A DNA stretch of 20,857 nucleotides from a virus. The notes beneath the pieces were generated by a model. It saw nothing but the letters and a program-made list of their open reading frames with translations, was not told where the DNA came from and did no database searches. The DNA is taken from the IMG/VR virus record IMGVR_UViG_3300042472_000572, positions 1-20,857 of that record; one strand, 5' to 3'. Below, piece after piece: positions 13,863 through 20,857 of the stretch. How positions within the stretch are numbered: the first letter of the stretch is position 1; every line of letters starts with the position of its first letter. A program made the position numbers and the translations under genes.

Positions 13863-16331
13863 GTGGCGCAAAAATTTATTACCCCTATTGCTATTCGGCA
13901 GTTGTCATCTGCTGGTTCTGACGGGTTAACGATTTATGTTGACGGCGACACCTATGCGAGACTCCAAGTTCAAGGCGGCGGACGCATTGTCTGGGGTGAC
14001 GGAACCAATGTTGGGGATGTAAATCTCTACCGCGATGGAGCGGATGTCCTCAAAACTGACGACACATTAAAAGTTCCCACTCTTTTTATTGACGGCATTG
14101 AAGTAGATACTTCTGGGGCTACTACTGACCAAGTGCTCAAATACAGCGGGGGCAAGTTCTCTCCTGGCACTGCATCTACCGTTGCTGCGCTTGATGACTT
14201 AACCGATGTAACCATAACGAGCATTGCCACTAATCAGGTTTTGCAATGGAACGGCACCGCATGGGTGAACTCAACTGCTGCAGGTGGAGCAACAATCTCC
14301 GACACCGCTCCGAGCACTCCTGTTGCTGGTCAGATTTGGTTTGAGTCCGACACTGGTAAAACTTTTATTTACTACGATTCTTTCTGGGTTGAAGTTGGAA
14401 CACAGCCTCTTGGGCCAAGTGGGCCGACTGGTCCTGTCGGTCCTACGGGTTTAACTGGAGCGACAGGTGCAACTGGGGTTGGGGCTACTGGACTTACTGG
14501 TGCCACGGGGTTAACTGGTGCCACGGGCGCAACAGGGCCTAGTGGTATTCCTGGTGAGGCAGGTACTGTTGGATTGGGTGGCGTTGATGGGGCAACAGGT
14601 CCAACAGGGCTAACTGGTGCGACTGGTGCAACGGGTCCACAAGGTCAGTCATCAAGTTTTTATAACTACCAAGTTAAAACTGGTTCTACTAGCGGTGACC
14701 CTGGTGACGGTCATATTACCTACAACAACGCAACACAGATTAGTGCCACGCAGTTACAAATAAACCATCTTGACACAGCCAATAACGATATTGACTTGTT
14801 TCTTGGTCTGCTTAAAAGCGGCGACAGAATATTTATTCAAGACCAGAATAACTCTGCCAACTTTCAGTCGTGGACGATTAACGGAACCGTTGTGGACCAC
14901 GGCAACTCGTGGCTTGATTTCCCTGTTTCGTTTGTTTCTTCTGGTGGCGTCGGTACTACTGGTTTCATCAATAACCATGCTGTTATTTTGGTTATTGCGA
15001 GCATTGGTGCCACGGGCGCAACTGGTCCCACGGGTGCAACTGGCGCTACTGGTCCATCTGGTTCTAACGGCTATGTTGGTTCTGACGGTGCAACTGGCGC
15101 TACTGGTCCAACGGGCGCAACAGGACCTGCTGGTGCTACAGGCGTAGCGTATGTGAGCGTTTCTGATACTGCTCCAGCATCACCAGTATCGGGCGACCTT
15201 TGGTTTGATTCATCAACTTCAGTTACATATGTTTATTACGATTCTTACTGGGTTGAAGTTGGTCCGCAACCACTAGGTCCGACTGGTCCGACTGGTCTTA
15301 CTGGAGCGACAGGTTTAACAGGCGCTACTGGTCCTACGGGTCTTACTGGCGCAACAGGACCGACTGGTCTAACGGGCGCAACAGGACCGACTGGTGTTGC
15401 TGCAACAGTCACGGTTGGAACCACAAGCGGTGGAGCAACAGGTTCTGTAACGAACAGCGGAACATCGGGTGCTGCGGTTTTGGACTTCGTGGTTCCTATC
15501 GGTGCTACTGGGGCGACAGGCCCAACAGGTTTAACAGGCGCAACAGGACCTACGGGAATTACGGGAGCGACTGGACCAACAGGCGCTACAGGCGCTACAG
15601 GTGTCGGTGCGCCATTAACAAGTTCTGCAACTGCTCCAGTATCTCCTGCTGCTGGTGACCTTTGGTTCAACTCAACTACTGGTTCTACTTACATCTACTA
15701 CAACTCGGCATGGGTTGAACTAGGTGCTGGTGCAATGTCGCCACTACCAGTTACTTCATCTACTCGTCCATCAGGTCCTTGGACTGGGCAGACAATTTAC
15801 GAGACTGATACTGGAATGATGGCCGTTTATAACGGCACATCATGGCGCTATGTAGCATCAGGAACTGCTGCATCGGGGAGCGTTTTACAGATTGTTGCAG
15901 CAAACAAAACTGACACTTTTACGACAACAAATACAACATTTACAGATGTAACTGGCTATAGCGTAACAATAACTCCAAAATCAACATCATCTAAAATACT
16001 CATTCAAGCATCAATGAATATTGGTGCAACATATGCAGCAAATACAACATATGTAAGACTAGTTAGAGATACAACAGCAATAGCCGTCGGTGATGCTGCT
16101 GGTTCACGAACACAAGTATCTATTGCTGCTGAGCCAAATGGAAACTCAATGGCTCAAGGAACTATTCAATACCTTGACTCTCCAGCAACAACAAGTTCTA
16201 TTACATACAAAATACAAATATGTACCAATGGTGCTGGTACTGCTGCAATAAACAGAAGTATTGATGATACAAATGCTACTGGGCGTCCAAGAGGAATGTC
16301 TTCAATTGTTGTTACAGAAATAGCAGGTTAA
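13863..16331 (+). CDS. Large collagen-like tail fibre / receptor-binding protein
   Basis: An 822-aa fibre with GTG start. The order is an N-terminal attachment domain (about 1-105), a small module ending [20 protein letters not shown], and then four collagen-like blocks of Gly-X-Thr/Gly-X-Y triplets (residues 184-262, 382-427, 472-511 and 547-582). Between and around them lie three copies of a module with [20 protein letters not shown] and [10 protein letters not shown] (beginning near 146, 434 and 588). Residues from about 625 form a beta-rich tip ([24 protein letters not shown]) like C1q/TNF-type heads on phage fibres. Collagen-like stalks make trimers and hold the head away from the tail. 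AGGAAG at 13846-13851 may be the ribosome binding site. Codon use changes sharply in the tip. Confidence 0.85.
14412..15608 (+). repeat. Four collagen-like Gly-X-Y blocks (GATGPTG type)
   Basis: The 9-bp based repeats encoding GATGPTG/GLTGATG lie at 14412-14648, 15006-15143, 15276-15395 and 15501-15608. In the third block almost every triplet is Gly-X-Thr with X being Pro, Leu or Ala, so proline sits in the X place and threonine in the Y place. The last three blocks are separated by about 105-130 bp carrying other modules. The DNA is repetitive enough to recombine, so block lengths may vary among relatives. Confidence 0.9.
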
Positions 16332-16333
16332 TA

Positions 16334-17098
16334 ATGGCTGCTATTACTTTTCCATCTTCTCCGTATGTAAATCAGATTTTTACTGTTGGTCCCAAGAGTT
16401 GGCAATTTGACGGAACGGTCTGGAACGCCTACTTCAACGAAGCCGTTGATTCTGTTTACGGAACTGGCGCAGACGGCGATGCAGTACTGGACGGAACTAC
16501 AACTATTCTCAGCATGGCTCCATCTTCAAGCGTGTATTCAATGACGCGCGATATGTACTTTAACGACTTGACTATCAATGCGAGCGTTCGTCTCGCCCCT
16601 AATGGATACAGAATCTTTGTCAAAGGCACGCTGAAGTTTATGGGGAACAACTCCACGGTTGGTTACACAACTGGCTTCGCAACTGCTGGTTCCATCGCTC
16701 AGGGTGGCGGAATACTAGAAGCGGTCATTCATTCTTTGGGTGGTGCTGCGACTGGGTATCTATCAACAGTTCCAACGGCAGCGCTAGGTGGCGCTAACTA
16801 TTTTAAAGTTCCACGACAAGCAGTTACTGGTTACTCAATCACTGCAGCAGGTGGACCTACCTTTTTGCGTGGAGGTGCTGGTGGACTAGCCCAAGTTGGA
16901 GGTGGAATAGTTATCATTGCCGCTCGTTACATTTCTGGTCCAGCGACAGGTACGGCTTACATCAAAGCACCAGGAACTGCACCTGCAGGCGGTGGGGTAA
17001 TACTTATTGTTTCTTCTGCTGAGGTTCTGGCTGCTGGAATTACGACTGATGTGACTGGGCAAAACCCAGGAACCGTCTACTATATGTCACAGGTGTGA
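16334..17098 (+). CDS. Gly-rich adhesin / fibre protein, shorter paralogue
   Basis: A 254-aa protein. Residues 1-34 (ITFPSSPYVNQIFTVG, then WQFDGTVWNAY) are a common phage fibre N-terminal motif. Residues 41-102 (VYGTGADGDAV ... PNGYRIFVKGTLKF) closely match residues 17-67 of the next protein. The C-terminal part has two Gly-rich strands, GGGIVIIAARYISG (189-202) and GGGVILIVSSAE (219-230), about 30 residues apart, followed by QNPGTVYYMSQV. The same two strands occur in the next protein far apart. Tandem position and shared ends mean the two genes came from a duplication. It is probably a fibre-tip adhesin. Confidence 0.72.
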   Translation: MAAITFPSSPYVNQIFTVGPKSWQFDGTVWNAYFNEAVDSVYGTGADGDAVLDGTTTILSMAPSSSVYSMTRDMYFNDLTINASVRLAPNGYRIFVKGTLKFMGNNSTVGYTTGFATAGSIAQGGGILEAVIHSLGGAATGYLSTVPTAALGGANYFKVPRQAVTGYSITAAGGPTFLRGGAGGLAQVGGGIVIIAARYISGPATGTAYIKAPGTAPAGGGVILIVSSAEVLAAGITTDVTGQNPGTVYYMSQV

Positions 17099-17099
17099 T

Positions 17100-18833
17100 A
17101 TGCCAATTTCAAGAATAGAAAAAAGTGTTACACGAGCAGGAAACGACTCTGTGTATGGGACAGGCATGGATGGTGATGTTGTTGTTTCTTCGGCGGTTAC
17201 TTTAACTTCTGACATGTTTTATAACTCTCTGACTATTACTTCGTCGGGTGTTTTGTTAACGAATGGATATAGAGTTTTTGTAAGAAACACATTGACCTTG
17301 GATGGTCATATGGGTATTGGTGCTGTGTCTGGTGCGACTGTTAGTCCTTCAGCCACTGTTGTTGCAGACGGAACAGTTAAAGGTCATTCGCAAGCAGCAA
17401 TAACCTACAGGGCGGGCGGTCAGGGCGGCGGAACATCGGCTCCTTCTATTCCGCAGTTGCCTTCGTACCTGTATAAAGACATCAATATGATGCTTTCTGG
17501 AATCATGGTTGATACCACTGGGTCTATCGTCGCTATTGGTGGAGGTTCTAAAGGAAACGCTGGGGCAACTGGTTCAACAGGTCCTAGTGGTGCGCCAGGG
17601 GCGGCTGGAGCATCAGGTACACCAAGCGAGACACCTGCTTCTTGGCCAGGTAAGGCTGGCGCGGCTGGTTCTAACGGCGGGTACGGACCTAGTGCAACAA
17701 CAGTCGGTGTACCAGGCGGAAGAGGAAACCCTGGCGCTGATGGTTCAGCCAACCCTACTGCCACAGGCGGAACAGGTGGCGCTGGAGGAGCAGGCGGTGC
17801 TGGAGGAACGGGAGGCGCAGGAGGCTCTGCGGGTGCAGGTGGAGGAGTTGTTCTTGTTGTTGCTAAAACAATCCTTGGTGCAGGAAAAATAATTTCTATT
17901 GGTAGTCATGGTTCTGCTGGTTCTGCAGGAAGTCCTGGTTCTGCAGGGAGTCCTGGTTCTGCAGGCGGCACAGGGCAACATCAACCTAAAGGTGCAAACG
18001 GTGCAAACGGCACCGCTGCACCTGGTCGTACAGACCATCACCATGTGGCTCCTGGGCATACTCATGCTCCACATACAAGAACACATAACCACCACAATCA
18101 CACGACGATACATTCTGACCGTCATGGGCACATAGTAAAACCTCATCACCATGTGGATTTTGGTAAATTTGTAGGTCACCTAAATGTTGAAGGTGCTCAC
18201 TGGCATCATGGTGGTCATTACCATCACCCTCATAACGACGGACCACACGGTGGTGTTACTCACTGGGATGGTCACTATTGGCATGCATGGATACCCCACT
18301 ACAACGGACAGGGACACTGGGTTCATTACCCCCCTAATCCTCATTCAAAACCCAACGGGCATCACAGTAGCGCCCAACCTGACGGCAATGGTCATCACCA
18401 CACTTTGGTCTACCACGGCTCTTTTGGTGGTCACGACGGACACACACATGCACACTTTGGACTTCCTCACCATAGCCATACCCACGGACACCACCCTCAC
18501 TCAAGTGCTGATTATCATCACCATAATCATTCGGCAAGTCACCCTAACGCTGATGCTTCCGCACACTACCCAGGTGGTGCTGGTGGAGTAAACGATGGAA
18601 CAAATACTGGCGCAGGCGCACCTGCAAGAACTGCTCCGAATGGTTCTGCAGGTTCACCTGGTGCCACAGGTTCTACGGGTTCAACAGGCGCTGCAGGCGG
18701 AGGCGGAGGCGGCGGAGCGATATTAGTCGTATCAGATACGGTCGCCAACACAATCACATACGATACAACGCAGGGCTCGTATGGTAGCATAAGTGCAACC
18801 CAAGGCTCTGCATACCTACTCATCAACTCATAG
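17100..18833 (+). CDS. Histidine-rich, collagen-like Gly-rich adhesin
   Basis: A 577-aa protein. Residues 17-67 match the N-terminal domain of its neighbour; 150-245 are Gly-rich with collagen-like triplets (GAP, GVP and GNP, with proline in the Y place). Strand GGGVVLVVAKTIL lies at about 247-259. There follow GSAGSPGSAGSPGSAGG repeats, then a histidine-rich segment (313-489) with 55 His in 177 residues (runs such as HHH, HTH, HGHHPH), many next to Gly, Trp, Tyr and Asn. A second Gly-rich strand, GGGGGGGAILVV, lies near 533-544, and the end is GSAYLLINS. The insertion between the two strands is about 260 residues compared with its paralogue. HxH motifs are known to bind metal in T4 gp37, so metal binding is likely by chemistry but unproved. 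It is likely a virion surface protein. AGG at 17091 is a weak ribosome binding site. Confidence 0.8.
   Translation: MPISRIEKSVTRAGNDSVYGTGMDGDVVVSSAVTLTSDMFYNSLTITSSGVLLTNGYRVFVRNTLTLDGHMGIGAVSGATVSPSATVVADGTVKGHSQAAITYRAGGQGGGTSAPSIPQLPSYLYKDINMMLSGIMVDTTGSIVAIGGGSKGNAGATGSTGPSGAPGAAGASGTPSETPASWPGKAGAAGSNGGYGPSATTVGVPGGRGNPGADGSANPTATGGTGGAGGAGGAGGTGGAGGSAGAGGGVVLVVAKTILGAGKIISIGSHGSAGSAGSPGSAGSPGSAGGTGQHQPKGANGANGTAAPGRTDHHHVAPGHTHAPHTRTHNHHNHTTIHSDRHGHIVKPHHHVDFGKFVGHLNVEGAHWHHGGHYHHPHNDGPHGGVTHWDGHYWHAWIPHYNGQGHWVHYPPNPHSKPNGHHSSAQPDGNGHHHTLVYHGSFGGHDGHTHAHFGLPHHSHTHGHHPHSSADYHHHNHSASHPNADASAHYPGGAGGVNDGTNTGAGAPARTAPNGSAGSPGATGSTGSTGAAGGGGGGGAILVVSDTVANTITYDTTQGSYGSISATQGSAYLLINS
17919..17966 (+). 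repeat. Tandem 18-bp repeats (GSAGSP) before the His-rich segment
   Basis: The unit GGTTCTGCAGGAAGTCCT at 17919-17936 is repeated at 17937-17954 with one change, and the first 11 bases again at 17955-17965. It encodes Gly-Ser-Ala-Gly-Ser-Pro, with proline in the collagen Y place. It joins the Gly-rich strand to the His-rich segment and looks like an expandable linker. Confidence 0.85.
18036..18566 (+). other. Segment encoding 177 residues with 55 histidines
   Basis: The frame of the 577-aa adhesin here uses CAT and CAC for about one residue in three, with Gly, Pro, Asn, Asp, Trp and Tyr between. The opposite strand and the +1 frame show long open stretches only because of this biased composition; they are shadows. 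No other gene in the window has such a bias. Confidence 0.9.
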
Positions 18834-18843
18834 AGGAGACAAC

Positions 18844-19071
18844 ATGGACTACGGTCTAAACACACAACAGAAAAAAGCCGTACTGGAAAGTAGTTTGGCA
18901 AATGTTAAGTCGGAGATTTTTCACTTGCTTCTCCGCTCAAACATTGACCCAGATACCTTTGATGCAGAAAACTATACTATTTCGGAAGTTTTAATAGGCG
19001 AACAGCAGCGACTAGCAACCCTGCTAAACAGCGTAGAACTGATTGAAAGAAAATTGACAGAGATTGCGTGA
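18844..19071 (+). CDS. Small helical protein, unknown function
   Basis: A 75-aa protein, MDYGLNTQQKKAVLES ... IERKLTEIA. The ATG at 18844 is chosen since AGGAG at 18834-18838 lies five bases upstream; the open frame continues to 18793 inside the previous gene. It is almost fully helical and amphipathic with no membrane segment, and may be a chaperone-like or structural partner. It is the first gene of the accessory cassette and overlaps the next one by GTGA, implying coupled translation. I do not recognise a family. Confidence 0.7.
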   Translation: MDYGLNTQQKKAVLESSLANVKSEIFHLLLRSNIDPDTFDAENYTISEVLIGEQQRLATLLNSVELIERKLTEIA

Positions 19072-19466
19072 AAAGGTTTGTTTGTGTCCCATCCAGCATG
19101 GGTGGGGTGCCAGATGAAGCAGTCAAACTGTCGAAAGAGTCTCAACTATCAATTCGTATAGAAGAAGATATTGATAAAATCTGTATTATGTCTTTCCCAG
19201 AAGATGATTTTACTGACTGCATGGACGAAGTAAAAGCAGGCTTCATACATATGTTGGACATTACAAACGAATTCGTCGATTTCCCCAGACATACGCACAT
19301 GGTAGCAACGGACTTGAATTCTTGTTCTCAAGTAATTAAGCCAATAGTCATCACGAATCATTCTCTTAGGTTTCGTTCACGATTTAGTACGCTAGGCTTG
19401 CATCAGTTTTCCATTGTCGATAATGATGCTGAAACTTATTACCAAGGAGAGTTCACAGTAATATGA
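19068..19466 (+). CDS. Unrecognised 132-aa protein of the oxygenase/halogenase cassette
   Basis: A GTG start at 19068 overlaps the previous stop (GTGA), and its TGA overlaps the next ATG (ATGA), so it is tightly coupled to the oxygenase gene. The protein has an N-terminal alternating region, then acidic FPEDDFTDCMDEVKAGFIHM (43-62), FPRHTHMVATDLNSCSQVIK (72-91) and a beta-rich end, HQFSIVDNDAETYYQGEFTV. The HTH residues 75-77 and the beta tail might recall a cupin-like or carrier fold, but no family motif is clear. Its placement suggests that it acts with the oxygenase: as partner, substrate adaptor or small beta-sandwich binding protein. I give no function. Confidence 0.7.
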   Translation: MKRFVCVPSSMGGVPDEAVKLSKESQLSIRIEEDIDKICIMSFPEDDFTDCMDEVKAGFIHMLDITNEFVDFPRHTHMVATDLNSCSQVIKPIVITNHSLRFRSRFSTLGLHQFSIVDNDAETYYQGEFTVI

Positions 19467-20047
19467 AGCATACAAAACTGGGAACATGCATATCCCTCTA
19501 TGAAGATGTGTTTACCGCCGATAACGCAAGTAAGTTTTTGAAAAGCCTAGAAAAAGAGACAGAATCAGATTGGTCTGAACTGTCATGGGGTGGCTCTTAT
19601 GTAGGGTCTGGGCAAGCCACATCCCATAGAACATCTTTAAATTGTTCCCTTGTTCCATTAATGAAGCCATACCCAGAAACGGATTTGTCGAAGTTCTTTA
19701 CAGAAACAATCCGCAATCCTATTGAAGAGGTTTCGGAAGACTACAGAAGCGAATTTTTAATTCCAACCGCCATGCATGAGCCGTATTCCCTTTTAAAGTA
19801 TTTGGAACAAGCGGAATACAAGCCGCATCACGACCATGCTCCAGATAATCGCAGGGTATATAGCATGGTTTCATTCTTATCGACCTCAGAAGAAGGTGGT
19901 CAATTAGAGTTTCCGCTTTTTGATGTTACTGTTGAGGCAATATGCGGAAGAGTCATCATGTTCCCATCTAACTTTCCTTACTTGCATATAGCACACCCAG
20001 TGACCAAAGGTGTAAAACATTCACTCGTTACTTGGTATCAAGGATAG
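19463..20047 (+). CDS. 2-oxoglutarate/Fe(II)-dependent dioxygenase (prolyl 4-hydroxylase-like)
   Basis: A 194-aa protein with the double-stranded beta-helix signature of the P4H-type superfamily. Iron ligands are visible as H122-x-D124 in YKPHHDHAPD, and the distal His as H175 in FPYLHIAHPVTKG. K185 in GVKHSLVTWY takes the place of the 2-oxoglutarate-binding Arg/Lys. VYSMVSFLS and GGQLEFPLFD (P4H-type 'GG.L.fp') lie between. The Asp in HxD means hydroxylase rather than Fe/2OG halogenase chemistry, in which this residue is Gly or Ala. The length is typical for small phage and bacterial P4H-like enzymes. Substrate unknown; protein prolines, other residues or small molecules are all possible. 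Cytosolic: no signal peptide. The ATG overlaps the previous stop, and the halogenase gene follows at 7 nt. Confidence 0.87.
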   Translation: MKHTKLGTCISLYEDVFTADNASKFLKSLEKETESDWSELSWGGSYVGSGQATSHRTSLNCSLVPLMKPYPETDLSKFFTETIRNPIEEVSEDYRSEFLIPTAMHEPYSLLKYLEQAEYKPHHDHAPDNRRVYSMVSFLSTSEEGGQLEFPLFDVTVEAICGRVIMFPSNFPYLHIAHPVTKGVKHSLVTWYQG

Positions 20048-20054
20048 GAAAACA

Positions 20055-20857
20055 ATGAACGACCGTATAAAAACCTTTGGCATAGTCGGCTCTGGTACTG
20101 CTGGACTAATCACGGCACTTATCCTGCGTAGGGCTTTCCCTACTTGCAGAATAACTGTTTTATCTTCTTCAAAGATTGGCATTATCGGGGTAGGTGAGGG
20201 GTCTACGGAGCACTGGAAACAATTCATGGAATTAGTCGATATCCCTCTTGAGGAGATGTTGGTAGAAACTCTGGCTACGCATAAGTACGGAATACGCTAC
20301 GAAAACTGGACTACGCACACAAAAGACTATTTTCATAGTGTGGGTCATGTCGATGATATTTTCTGCTACGGATTCTTTGCAGCATATATGGGGATTATTG
20401 AATCTGGGAAAACGCTAACTAGTCAAACATCAAGTGTTGGCATGGTACGGAACAAAATCAATAGAGAAGGTTTACACAAGAACACTAACCAGTTTCATTT
20501 TGACACAATTAAACTAAATGAGTATTTTACAAAATTGGCTTTCAAGCGGAATGTTAAGTTTGTTGATGGGGAAGTTGAATCTGTCGTAAAGGACGAAGAT
20601 GGGCTTATTGCTTCGGTACTAACAAAACAGGGCGATGCGATAGATGCCGACTTTTGGTTTGACGCCTCAGGTTTTAGCCGAGTATTAATGAATGAAGTTG
20701 GCGATGCGGACTGGAATTCTTTTAGTGAATTTTTGCTATGCAACTCAGCAATTCCTTTTCCAACAGAAAGCGACCCCAACGGACAAATTCGTCCGTACAC
20801 CCGAGCCCGTGCAGCGTCTTCTGGATGGATGTGGGAAATCCCTACACAGGAACGCAG
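20055..20857 (+). CDS. Flavin-dependent halogenase (tryptophan halogenase family), 3' partial
   Basis: The frame from ATG 20055 (AGGA at 20046-20049) runs to the right edge, giving 267 residues of a family whose members have about 500. Diagnostic motifs are all present: the FAD-binding GxGxxG as GSGTAG (12-17), GVGEGST (45-51) like the family's GvGEat, and HKYGIRYENW (76-85), whose K77 matches the catalytic lysine (K79 of PrnA and RebH). DFWFDASGFSR lies at 199-209, and GWMWEIP (257-263) is the GWxWxIP motif that separates halogenases from monooxygenases. Such enzymes use reduced FAD, O2 and halide to put Cl, Br or I on electron-rich aromatics, and need a flavin reductase (none seen here). 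Cyanophage VirX1 shows that phages can carry active members. The substrate cannot be read from sequence. Confidence 0.93.
   Translation, partial: MNDRIKTFGIVGSGTAGLITALILRRAFPTCRITVLSSSKIGIIGVGEGSTEHWKQFMELVDIPLEEMLVETLATHKYGIRYENWTTHTKDYFHSVGHVDDIFCYGFFAAYMGIIESGKTLTSQTSSVGMVRNKINREGLHKNTNQFHFDTIKLNEYFTKLAFKRNVKFVDGEVESVVKDEDGLIASVLTKQGDAIDADFWFDASGFSRVLMNEVGDADWNSFSEFLLCNSAIPFPTESDPNGQIRPYTRARAASSGWMWEIPTQER

Follow-up and report, generated by a model that had tools for sequence, protein, structure and literature searches.

A phage gene cassette in which a histidine-rich tail adhesin adjoins a prolyl-hydroxylase-fold oxygenase and a flavin-dependent halogenase

The adhesin, oxygenase and halogenase genes

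The IMG/VR virus record IMGVR_UViG_3300042472_000572 was analyzed over its whole length of 20857 bases (the window). Its last 4.5 kb hold a cassette, with all genes on the + strand, that encodes a histidine (His)-rich tail adhesin, a 2-oxoglutarate (2OG)-dependent oxygenase and a flavin-dependent halogenase. In related loci the adhesin, the hydroxylase and the halogenase are nearly always found together, which suggests that a phage chemically finishes its own host-binding protein. The cassette begins with a short adhesin-like paralogue of 254 amino acids (16334-17098), whose N-terminal domain is, by profile comparison, common to it and to the long adhesin that follows. This long, Gly-rich adhesin (577 amino acids; 17100-18833) matches the tail fiber family phrog_8745 with an E value of 5.7e-07, and its residues 291-503 (17970-18608) form the His-rich insert. 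Next come a 75-amino-acid gene termed s (18844-19071), with AGGAGA upstream; a 132-amino-acid gene termed m132 (19068-19466), whose GTG start lies within a 4-bp overlap; and the 2OG-Fe(II) oxygenase of prolyl-4-hydroxylase (P4H) fold (194 amino acids; 19463-20047), which overlaps m132 by another 4 bp, such that all three genes are linked. The halogenase gene (20055-20857) is cut by the contig end after its first 267 residues, among which K77 and the motif WMWEIP (258-263) are present. A second contig (L002), 100% identical over the 267 shared residues, continues to a complete halogenase of 497 amino acids and then to a 271-amino-acid protein, D271. In relatives, another copy of s often lies downstream of the halogenase.

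An initial annotation, made from the sequence alone, had described a co-directional set with a duplicated adhesin, two small coupled genes, a hydroxylase and a halogenase. This observation is confirmed: the open reading frames (ORFs) are all on the + strand, 4-bp overlaps couple three of them, the Pfam scores of the hydroxylase and the halogenase exceed their cut-offs, and the word “duplicated” holds because the N-terminal domain is common to the short and the long adhesin. The adhesin insert had been called both collagen-like and His-rich. Its His-rich character stands, with 56 His among 213 residues, 18 HxH motifs, 5 Trp and 7 Tyr, and its collagen-like character is weak, the long adhesin reaching 20.3 bits of the 27.2 required for Pfam Collagen (PF01391). 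A separate 822-amino-acid collagen-like fibre with five Pfam Collagen stretches (89.4 bits) and G-P-T type repeats is encoded just upstream of the cassette (13863-16331).

The His-rich frame is a real coding segment, because it is kept in relatives, shows few amino-acid changes against an uncomputably high synonymous change, and is matched by stops in the other + frames. Compared with its counterpart in contig L005, the insert is 89% identical, with a nonsynonymous divergence (dN) of 0.09 and a synonymous divergence (dS) that was not computable and is taken as saturation; the other two + frames contain 5 and 14 stops. ORFs this rich in His are rare. In the 80 halogenase loci described below, 3 of 1155 other ORFs of at least 100 amino acids reach 12 His in 60 residues, one of these three being a cut piece of this same adhesin, and the His-richness of the adhesin beside the halogenase is not due to chance. 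Composition was tabulated for 61 adhesins, all but two of which had been preselected for 10 or more His in 60 residues, and the table is descriptive, with no test attached: His is enriched 35-fold in the insert, and Gly makes up 23% of the sequence outside it. Tyr is found in all 61 (minimum 4), and Trp is absent from five whose loci have a halogenase (L121, L126, L135, L181 and L192). A [YW]-x-GG motif, located by script at the insert end of 50 adhesins, is a lead only. At equal halogenase identity, the variability of the insert does not clearly exceed that of the N-terminal domain, and we therefore make no claim of diversifying selection.

A Pfam-A scan of the long adhesin at E values up to 1 returned Collagen alone, without a match to the gp38 adhesin family of Pfam. 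The short adhesin has no Pfam match at E up to 1 and no PHROG match at E up to 0.01, and GenBank phage records contain no match to the window's two adhesins or to the N-terminal domain of the L033 adhesin. HxH motifs hold iron in the fibre tips of T4, and by analogy the His-rich insert may also bind metal. In layout, the long adhesin resembles Gp38 of S16-like phages, a tail-fibre tip protein that sets host range and that is described, in the accessible part of its report, as a polyglycine sandwich whose Gly-rich motifs are split by hypervariable segments (PMC6851490). Unlike Gp38, the window adhesin has a single very long His-rich insert, adjoining enzymes and no Pfam match. In composition it recalls the Nereis jaw protein Nvjp-1, which an excerpt of the relevant report presents as His- and Gly-rich, with zinc-binding relatives, and as part of a probably halogenated, cross-linked protein (PMC13120676), although that is an animal structural protein and the analogy is one of composition alone. 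Collar-looking proteins near related modules are His-rich as well, with 16 His in 60 residues in L005:2319-3173 (Pfam Collar) and 12 in L027:4687-5607 (collar-like by its start only).

The halogenase matches PF04820 with 200.2 bits for the part in the window and 349.2 bits for the complete copy (cut-off 21). In an alignment of 43 rows, the GxGxxG glycines (G12, G14, G17) are invariant, as are W258, P263 and K77, and at least 90% of rows keep W260, I262 and E332; in the 14 rows of the window's clade, the WxWxIP, Lys and Glu residues are all invariant. We take K77 and E332, the latter lying beyond the window end and read in L002, to be the catalytic Lys and Glu of flavin halogenases. The best PDB sequence match is 6frl (“Tryptophan halogenase superfamily”; 189 bits over residues 3-431), which we take to be BrvH. 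There are also weak NCBIfam profile matches, the best to QhpG and another to LodB, although their scores stay well under the curated thresholds (48.2 of 240 and 26.7 of 400 bits) and QhpG and LodB serve cofactor making. QhpG is, according to the portion of its report that was available, a halogenase-like flavoprotein that dihydroxylates Trp inside a protein (PMC7876137).

The oxygenase matches PF13640 with 46.2 bits (cut-off 27). Four residues (H122, D124, H175 and K185) are invariant in 37 rows and form an HxD...H pattern with a Lys ten residues on, a spacing that is presumably the collagen-P4H pattern. An AlphaFold2 (AF2) model, with a mean predicted local distance difference test (pLDDT) score of 91.9, has its best structural match in 3gze_A, which carries a Ser-Pro peptide (Z 19.7, root-mean-square deviation (rmsd) 2.4 over 169). 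All 50 matches listed by VIA-align, a re-examination of Foldseek's own hits, are prolyl hydroxylases; many are entries of PHD2, and 4iw3 with EF-Tu and the viral collagen enzyme vCPH are also included. In Foldseek's own list, the first 50 rows include two proteins that are not named as prolyl hydroxylases. As judged from the predicted structure, the enzyme has a protein prolyl hydroxylase fold. It shares the 2OG fold and the conserved iron-ligand pattern with vCPH of PBCV-1 and with algal and bacterial P4Hs, but its partner is a Gly/His-rich tail adhesin and a halogenase adjoins it. Its suggested role as a collagen-stalk enzyme is not clear, since the adhesin's collagen score is weak, the G-P-T type repeats lie in another gene, and the enzyme also accompanies adhesins that lack a halogenase.

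Linkage of adhesin and halogenase

Linkage in IMG/VR was counted from both sides. The best 80 of 132 loci with halogenase relatives were clustered at 85% identity, giving 49 clusters. A first adhesin-anchored sample comprised the best 80 of 453 relatives, not selected by His content or halogenase, the query alignment having come from linked adhesins; a second, with a more distant query, comprised the best 80 of 333, and some contigs are in both. A core-phage sample anchored on a baseplate protein gave only two loci and was dropped. Genes were labelled as 2OG by an iterated profile, which picks up other 2OG groups too.

The usual set in halogenase loci consists of the short adhesin, the long His-rich adhesin, s, m132, the 2OG oxygenase, the halogenase and D271, often with s and a gene termed m226. 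An adhesin domain lies within 10 kb of the halogenase in 47 of the 49 clusters, a 2OG gene is found in 45 and D271 in 47. In 45 clusters, too, some ORF reaches 12 or more His in 60 residues, and in L027 this is the collar-type protein, not an adhesin. The two clusters without an adhesin are L027, whose contig starts 1.9 kb before the halogenase, and L065. From the adhesin side, 52 loci contain a complete long adhesin followed by 6 kb or more of sequence. The halogenase lies within 2.5 kb of the adhesin in every one of them; all 52 also reach 12 or more His in 60 residues, and a 2OG gene is present in 48. The other 28 of the 80 loci were left out of this count, 10 for want of a complete long adhesin and 18 for having less than 6 kb behind it. 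Fifteen of these 18 have the halogenase, and the three that show none extend at most 1.2 kb behind the adhesin.

Among 25 long records chosen for holding a halogenase, 24 contain one halogenase and one long adhesin, and G031 contains two of each; an additional adhesin-domain match in G024 is in a 168-amino-acid frame at the contig edge. The co-occurrence that the initial annotation had proposed to count is thus near-absolute in both directions and one-to-one per record. The reverse pattern, in which the enzymes would be found mostly in phages lacking such adhesins, is absent from this halogenase clade and does apply to other phage halogenases (10 of 20 isolate loci). The two modules of G031 (L076 and L095) lie ~10 kb apart, and their halogenases are 65% and 46% identical to the query.

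Gene order varies among loci. The 2OG gene lies behind D271 in L033, m226 is between the 2OG gene and the halogenase in L051 and L053, extra genes are inserted in L025 and L029, and the adhesins are on the opposite strand in L066-L069. The halogenase and the adhesin stay paired despite such reordering, insertions and inversion, and despite loss of the 2OG gene.

The second adhesin-anchored sample includes sister adhesins that lack the halogenase. Forty-six of its 80 loci have the enzyme, 20 do not despite sufficient room, and 14 could not be assigned. The 20 adhesins without halogenase have 0-9 His in their richest 60 residues and 28-71 Tyr, except for that of L268 (20 Tyr). Among those whose sequence was read, the adhesins of L246 (71 Tyr, no His) and L253 (32 Tyr, 11 His) contain Tyr-rich inserts, and that of L268 contains none of this kind. 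We assembled a non-redundant set of 89 adhesins of known status, which includes loci fetched via the halogenase (11 of 233 adhesins could not be assigned). The halogenase is present beside all 75 adhesins with at least 10 His in 60 residues, versus 3 of the 14 below that level; at 60% identity the counts are 44 of 44 and 3 of 8, and in the non-redundant adhesin-anchored samples alone they are 62 of 62 and 1 of 12. For halogenase presence, the area under the curve is 0.98 for His, 0.02 for Tyr and 0.58 for Trp. His is the residue that both marks halogenase-linked adhesins and is abundant in most of them.

Tyr was rejected as the tracked residue, its content running opposite to halogenase presence; it may still be the residue modified, because it is present in all 61 adhesins counted. 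A target limited to Trp, or to free Trp, was rejected as a universal one, the halogenase being present with the five Trp-free adhesins named above.

Ten of the 11 non-redundant adhesins without halogenase still have 2OG and D271 relatives, and further enzymes lie beside the two Tyr-rich examples. L253 has two 2OG genes and an FkbM-type methyltransferase (L253:15230-15943). L246 has a PF11397 N-acetylglucosamine (GlcNAc)-transferase (L246:12891-14108) next to a 2OG gene and two D271-like genes; a PDB search with this GlcNAc-transferase-like protein was empty at E up to 0.01. PF11397 presumably includes the enzyme that adds GlcNAc to the hydroxyproline of Skp1 after P4H action, and if so, the pairing with a 2OG gene in L246 hints at protein hydroxylation. 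The gene content of L246 and L253 raises the possibility that a Tyr-rich adhesin is glycosylated at hydroxyproline or is methylated.

The hosts are probably actinobacteria, because the phages carry WhiB genes and one contig was binned with Actinomycetota. WhiB proteins are actinobacterial. Their genes were found in 15 of 30 records searched, including all seven of at least 100 kb, and among the search controls only Corynebacterium gave a signal. The same gene set as in the window occurs in L191, a contig binned with an Actinomycetota metagenome-assembled genome (MAG). Two other loci (L192 and L193) are in a MAG called Gammaproteobacteria, which may reflect a binning error. The habitat appears to be mostly fresh water, and these two loci appear to be marine.

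Halogenases beside cyanophage adhesins

The pairing of adhesin and halogenase recurs in cyanophages, whose adhesins are unrelated. In 20 of 20 cyanophage records (11 named phages, several present as RefSeq copies), a VirX1-type halogenase lies within ~3 kb of a syn9-type Gly_rich_2 adhesin. This adhesin belongs to PF21722 in the four that were scanned, and none of 17 cyanophage proteins matches the window's adhesin profiles. The syn9 halogenase (L111:11511-13103) matches PDB entry 6qgm over its full length and that of Syn10 at 100%, and by this identity the halogenase of syn9 and Syn10 is VirX1 itself. VirX1 (Syn10, 6qgm) belongs to the same Pfam family as the window halogenase and has the same active-site motifs, and its gene, too, neighbours 2OG genes and a D271 relative in a tail-adhesin locus. 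Nonetheless, it falls in a separate clade and its adhesin is of the Gly_rich_2 family. A midpoint-rooted tree separates the VirX1 clade from that of the window, and halogenases of the P-SSM2 and S-PM2 type fall between the two. Relatives of D271 are present in L111, L197, L199 and L206, 2OG genes are also found in cyanophage loci, and the S-CREM1 locus encodes a JmjC_2 protein.

Of the nine S-RIM44 records in the halogenase list, five carry the adhesins together with two extra halogenases, and the other four lack both. Comparison of L207 (NC_047734) with L208 (KX349295) reveals that the block between the giant tail fibre gene and the neck gene has been exchanged: one version contains three Gly-rich adhesin-type genes, two halogenases and 2OG genes, and the other contains a few short genes, one of them a 2OG gene. 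Nine loci from a phage collection were also examined, and in none was the window's adhesin domain present or did an ORF reach 10 His in 60 residues. In the reservoir cyanophage S-SRM01, a halogenase lies between a tail fibre gene and an annotated gp37-gp38 adhesin tip complex (L110:7974-12582). Sf-CH11 (L209) has a halogenase 41% identical to VirX1 in a tail locus with P4H/2OG genes and a LamG-like gene, and no match there to the syn9-type Gly-rich adhesin.

Possible tailoring of the adhesin and alternative explanations

As the best-supported explanation, we infer that the enzymes tailor the phage's own receptor-binding adhesin, an account of substrate, product and benefit that we consider fairly probable. 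From the observed gene set, linkage and catalytic residues, we would predict the long adhesin to be both the substrate and a Gly-rich receptor-binding protein with a long His-rich segment between Gly-rich modules. Modification would take place in the infected cell before tail assembly. The P4H-fold oxygenase would hydroxylate the long adhesin, most simply at Pro in extended segments, and the halogenase would modify the insert at His, or at Tyr or Trp among the His. Tyr or Trp may be the target because the substrates usually known for flavin halogenases are indoles, phenols and pyrroles. Presenting or holding the substrate may fall to the small proteins and to the DUF6065-like protein next to the halogenase (D271), and the product would be an adhesin whose surface chemistry, metal binding or stability is altered. 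Of the original suggestion that the enzymes act on the adhesin, the co-occurrence has been borne out, and a collagen-stalk target has not.

A broader reading, to which we give somewhat less than even credence, is that Gly-rich adhesin families with a low-complexity insert are each served by their own set of protein-modifying enzymes, hydroxylase and halogenase for His-rich inserts, and hydroxylase with GlcNAc-transferase or methyltransferase for Tyr-rich ones. VirX1 and its relatives would then be protein halogenases of virion adhesins, and phages of freshwater actinobacteria and marine cyanobacteria would carry halogenated receptor-binding proteins.

Several observations weigh against adhesin tailoring in its narrower or broader form. 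A 9.6-kb halogenase contig (L065), with 3.5 kb before the gene and 4.6 kb behind it, has no adhesin, 2OG gene or D271 detectable by profiles, and no 2OG gene was found in four of the 52 adhesin-anchored loci (L124, L129, L135 and L151). Three seemingly marine loci (L192, L193 and L215) have the halogenase, yet fewer than 10 His in 60 residues. The contrast in His content with and without halogenase amounts to one change on the adhesin tree, and for this reason p-values would overstate it. Among the 17 cyanophage adhesins His is only moderate, with 4-10 in 60 residues. By our own reading of the annotation, 10 of 20 annotated isolate halogenase loci are outside tail-fibre loci, counting S-H38 among them though a tail fibre gene is 6.6 kb away, and S-B64 has a VirX1-clade halogenase in such a position. 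To our knowledge, most described flavin halogenases act on small molecules. VirX1 itself iodinates many small aromatics in vitro, according to the available part of a review (PMC8407142), in which no natural substrate is named for it.

The initial annotation had offered as its alternative that the substrate of the enzymes is a host metabolite or envelope compound. Such activity would serve antibiotic-like chemistry, signalling or a receptor change against superinfection, and the adhesin would adjoin as a fellow host-range gene. Other phage halogenases do lie among metabolic genes, and the accessible passages of earlier reports guess at antibiotic protection via pyrrolnitrin-like chemistry (PMC2984593, PMC9964418) or at changed host metabolites (PMC10452541). 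We regard this explanation as unlikely for the window's group, given the one-to-one coupling of the halogenase to one adhesin family, the tandem copy of the whole unit in G031, the coupling of the halogenase to insert composition, and the protein hydroxylases that are the nearest folds of the 2OG enzyme. Just as improbable, in our judgement, is that another cassette protein, namely the short adhesin, the 75- or 132-amino-acid protein or the upstream collagen-like fibre, is modified in place of the His-rich insert. The long adhesin is the member whose composition shifts with the enzyme set, and collagen-like fibres are not seen near many modules, even though the window (13863-16331) and many relatives have one immediately upstream; the short adhesin and the small genes are widely conserved too, and the marine halogenase-linked adhesins with few His imply that the insert need not be His-rich. 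Weakest of all is hitchhiking, in which a host-range locus is swapped as a block and the enzymes are carried with it, having no biochemical connection with the adhesin: the S-RIM44 exchange between tail fibre and neck genes, the possibly large share of vertical inheritance in the linkage of the window's group and the single His/halogenase switch would fit it, but the halogenase and adhesin stay together through reordering, strand inversion and loss of single members, the catalytic residues are kept, and a second, unrelated adhesin family has the same kind of enzymes.

Other modifications of virion proteins by virus-encoded enzymes are known, such as glycosylation and collagen hydroxylation. 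Among the open-licence papers listed by literature searches, none connects a phage halogenase with a tail adhesin in its title or the opening of its abstract, and in the literature found we saw no description of a halogenase that serves an adhesin in particular. Among lake phages, a tryptophan 7-halogenase ORF was reported in one and a 2OG oxygenase in another, with no link to an adhesin drawn in the portion of that report available (PMC10611076). Tailoring of the adhesin offers a natural-substrate hypothesis for VirX1 and for many “tryptophan halogenase” genes of aquatic phages, which have so far been explained as antibiotic or metabolite genes. If it is correct, halogenation of a virion protein would be shown, the receptor-binding protein chemistry of phages would go beyond the 20 amino acids, and the prediction of host range from sequence would change. 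Cyanophages already isolated (syn9, Syn10, and S-RIM44 strains that have or lack the cassette) would allow a direct test.

D271, which adjoins the halogenase outside the window, belongs to phrog_7084, a family with no function annotated. Its AF2 model (pLDDT 87.1) has a predicted dUTPase fold, with matches to 3lqw (Z 10.4, rmsd 4.2 over 125) and 2y8c_C (Z 9.7, rmsd 1.9 over 106). In the profile alignment (vvhTDfYh versus VIDSDYRG), the first Asp of dUTPase motif 3, which we take to be catalytic, is not kept, and D271 may have a structural role. More distant relatives match DUF6065 below the cut-off. Such DUF6065-like relatives are encoded in Halorubrum viruses (L187:7830-8672 and L190:7836-8669), close to tail genes and ribonucleotide reductase, and in HRTV-14 the neighbours of the DUF6065-like gene are annotated as putative adhesin and tail fibre.

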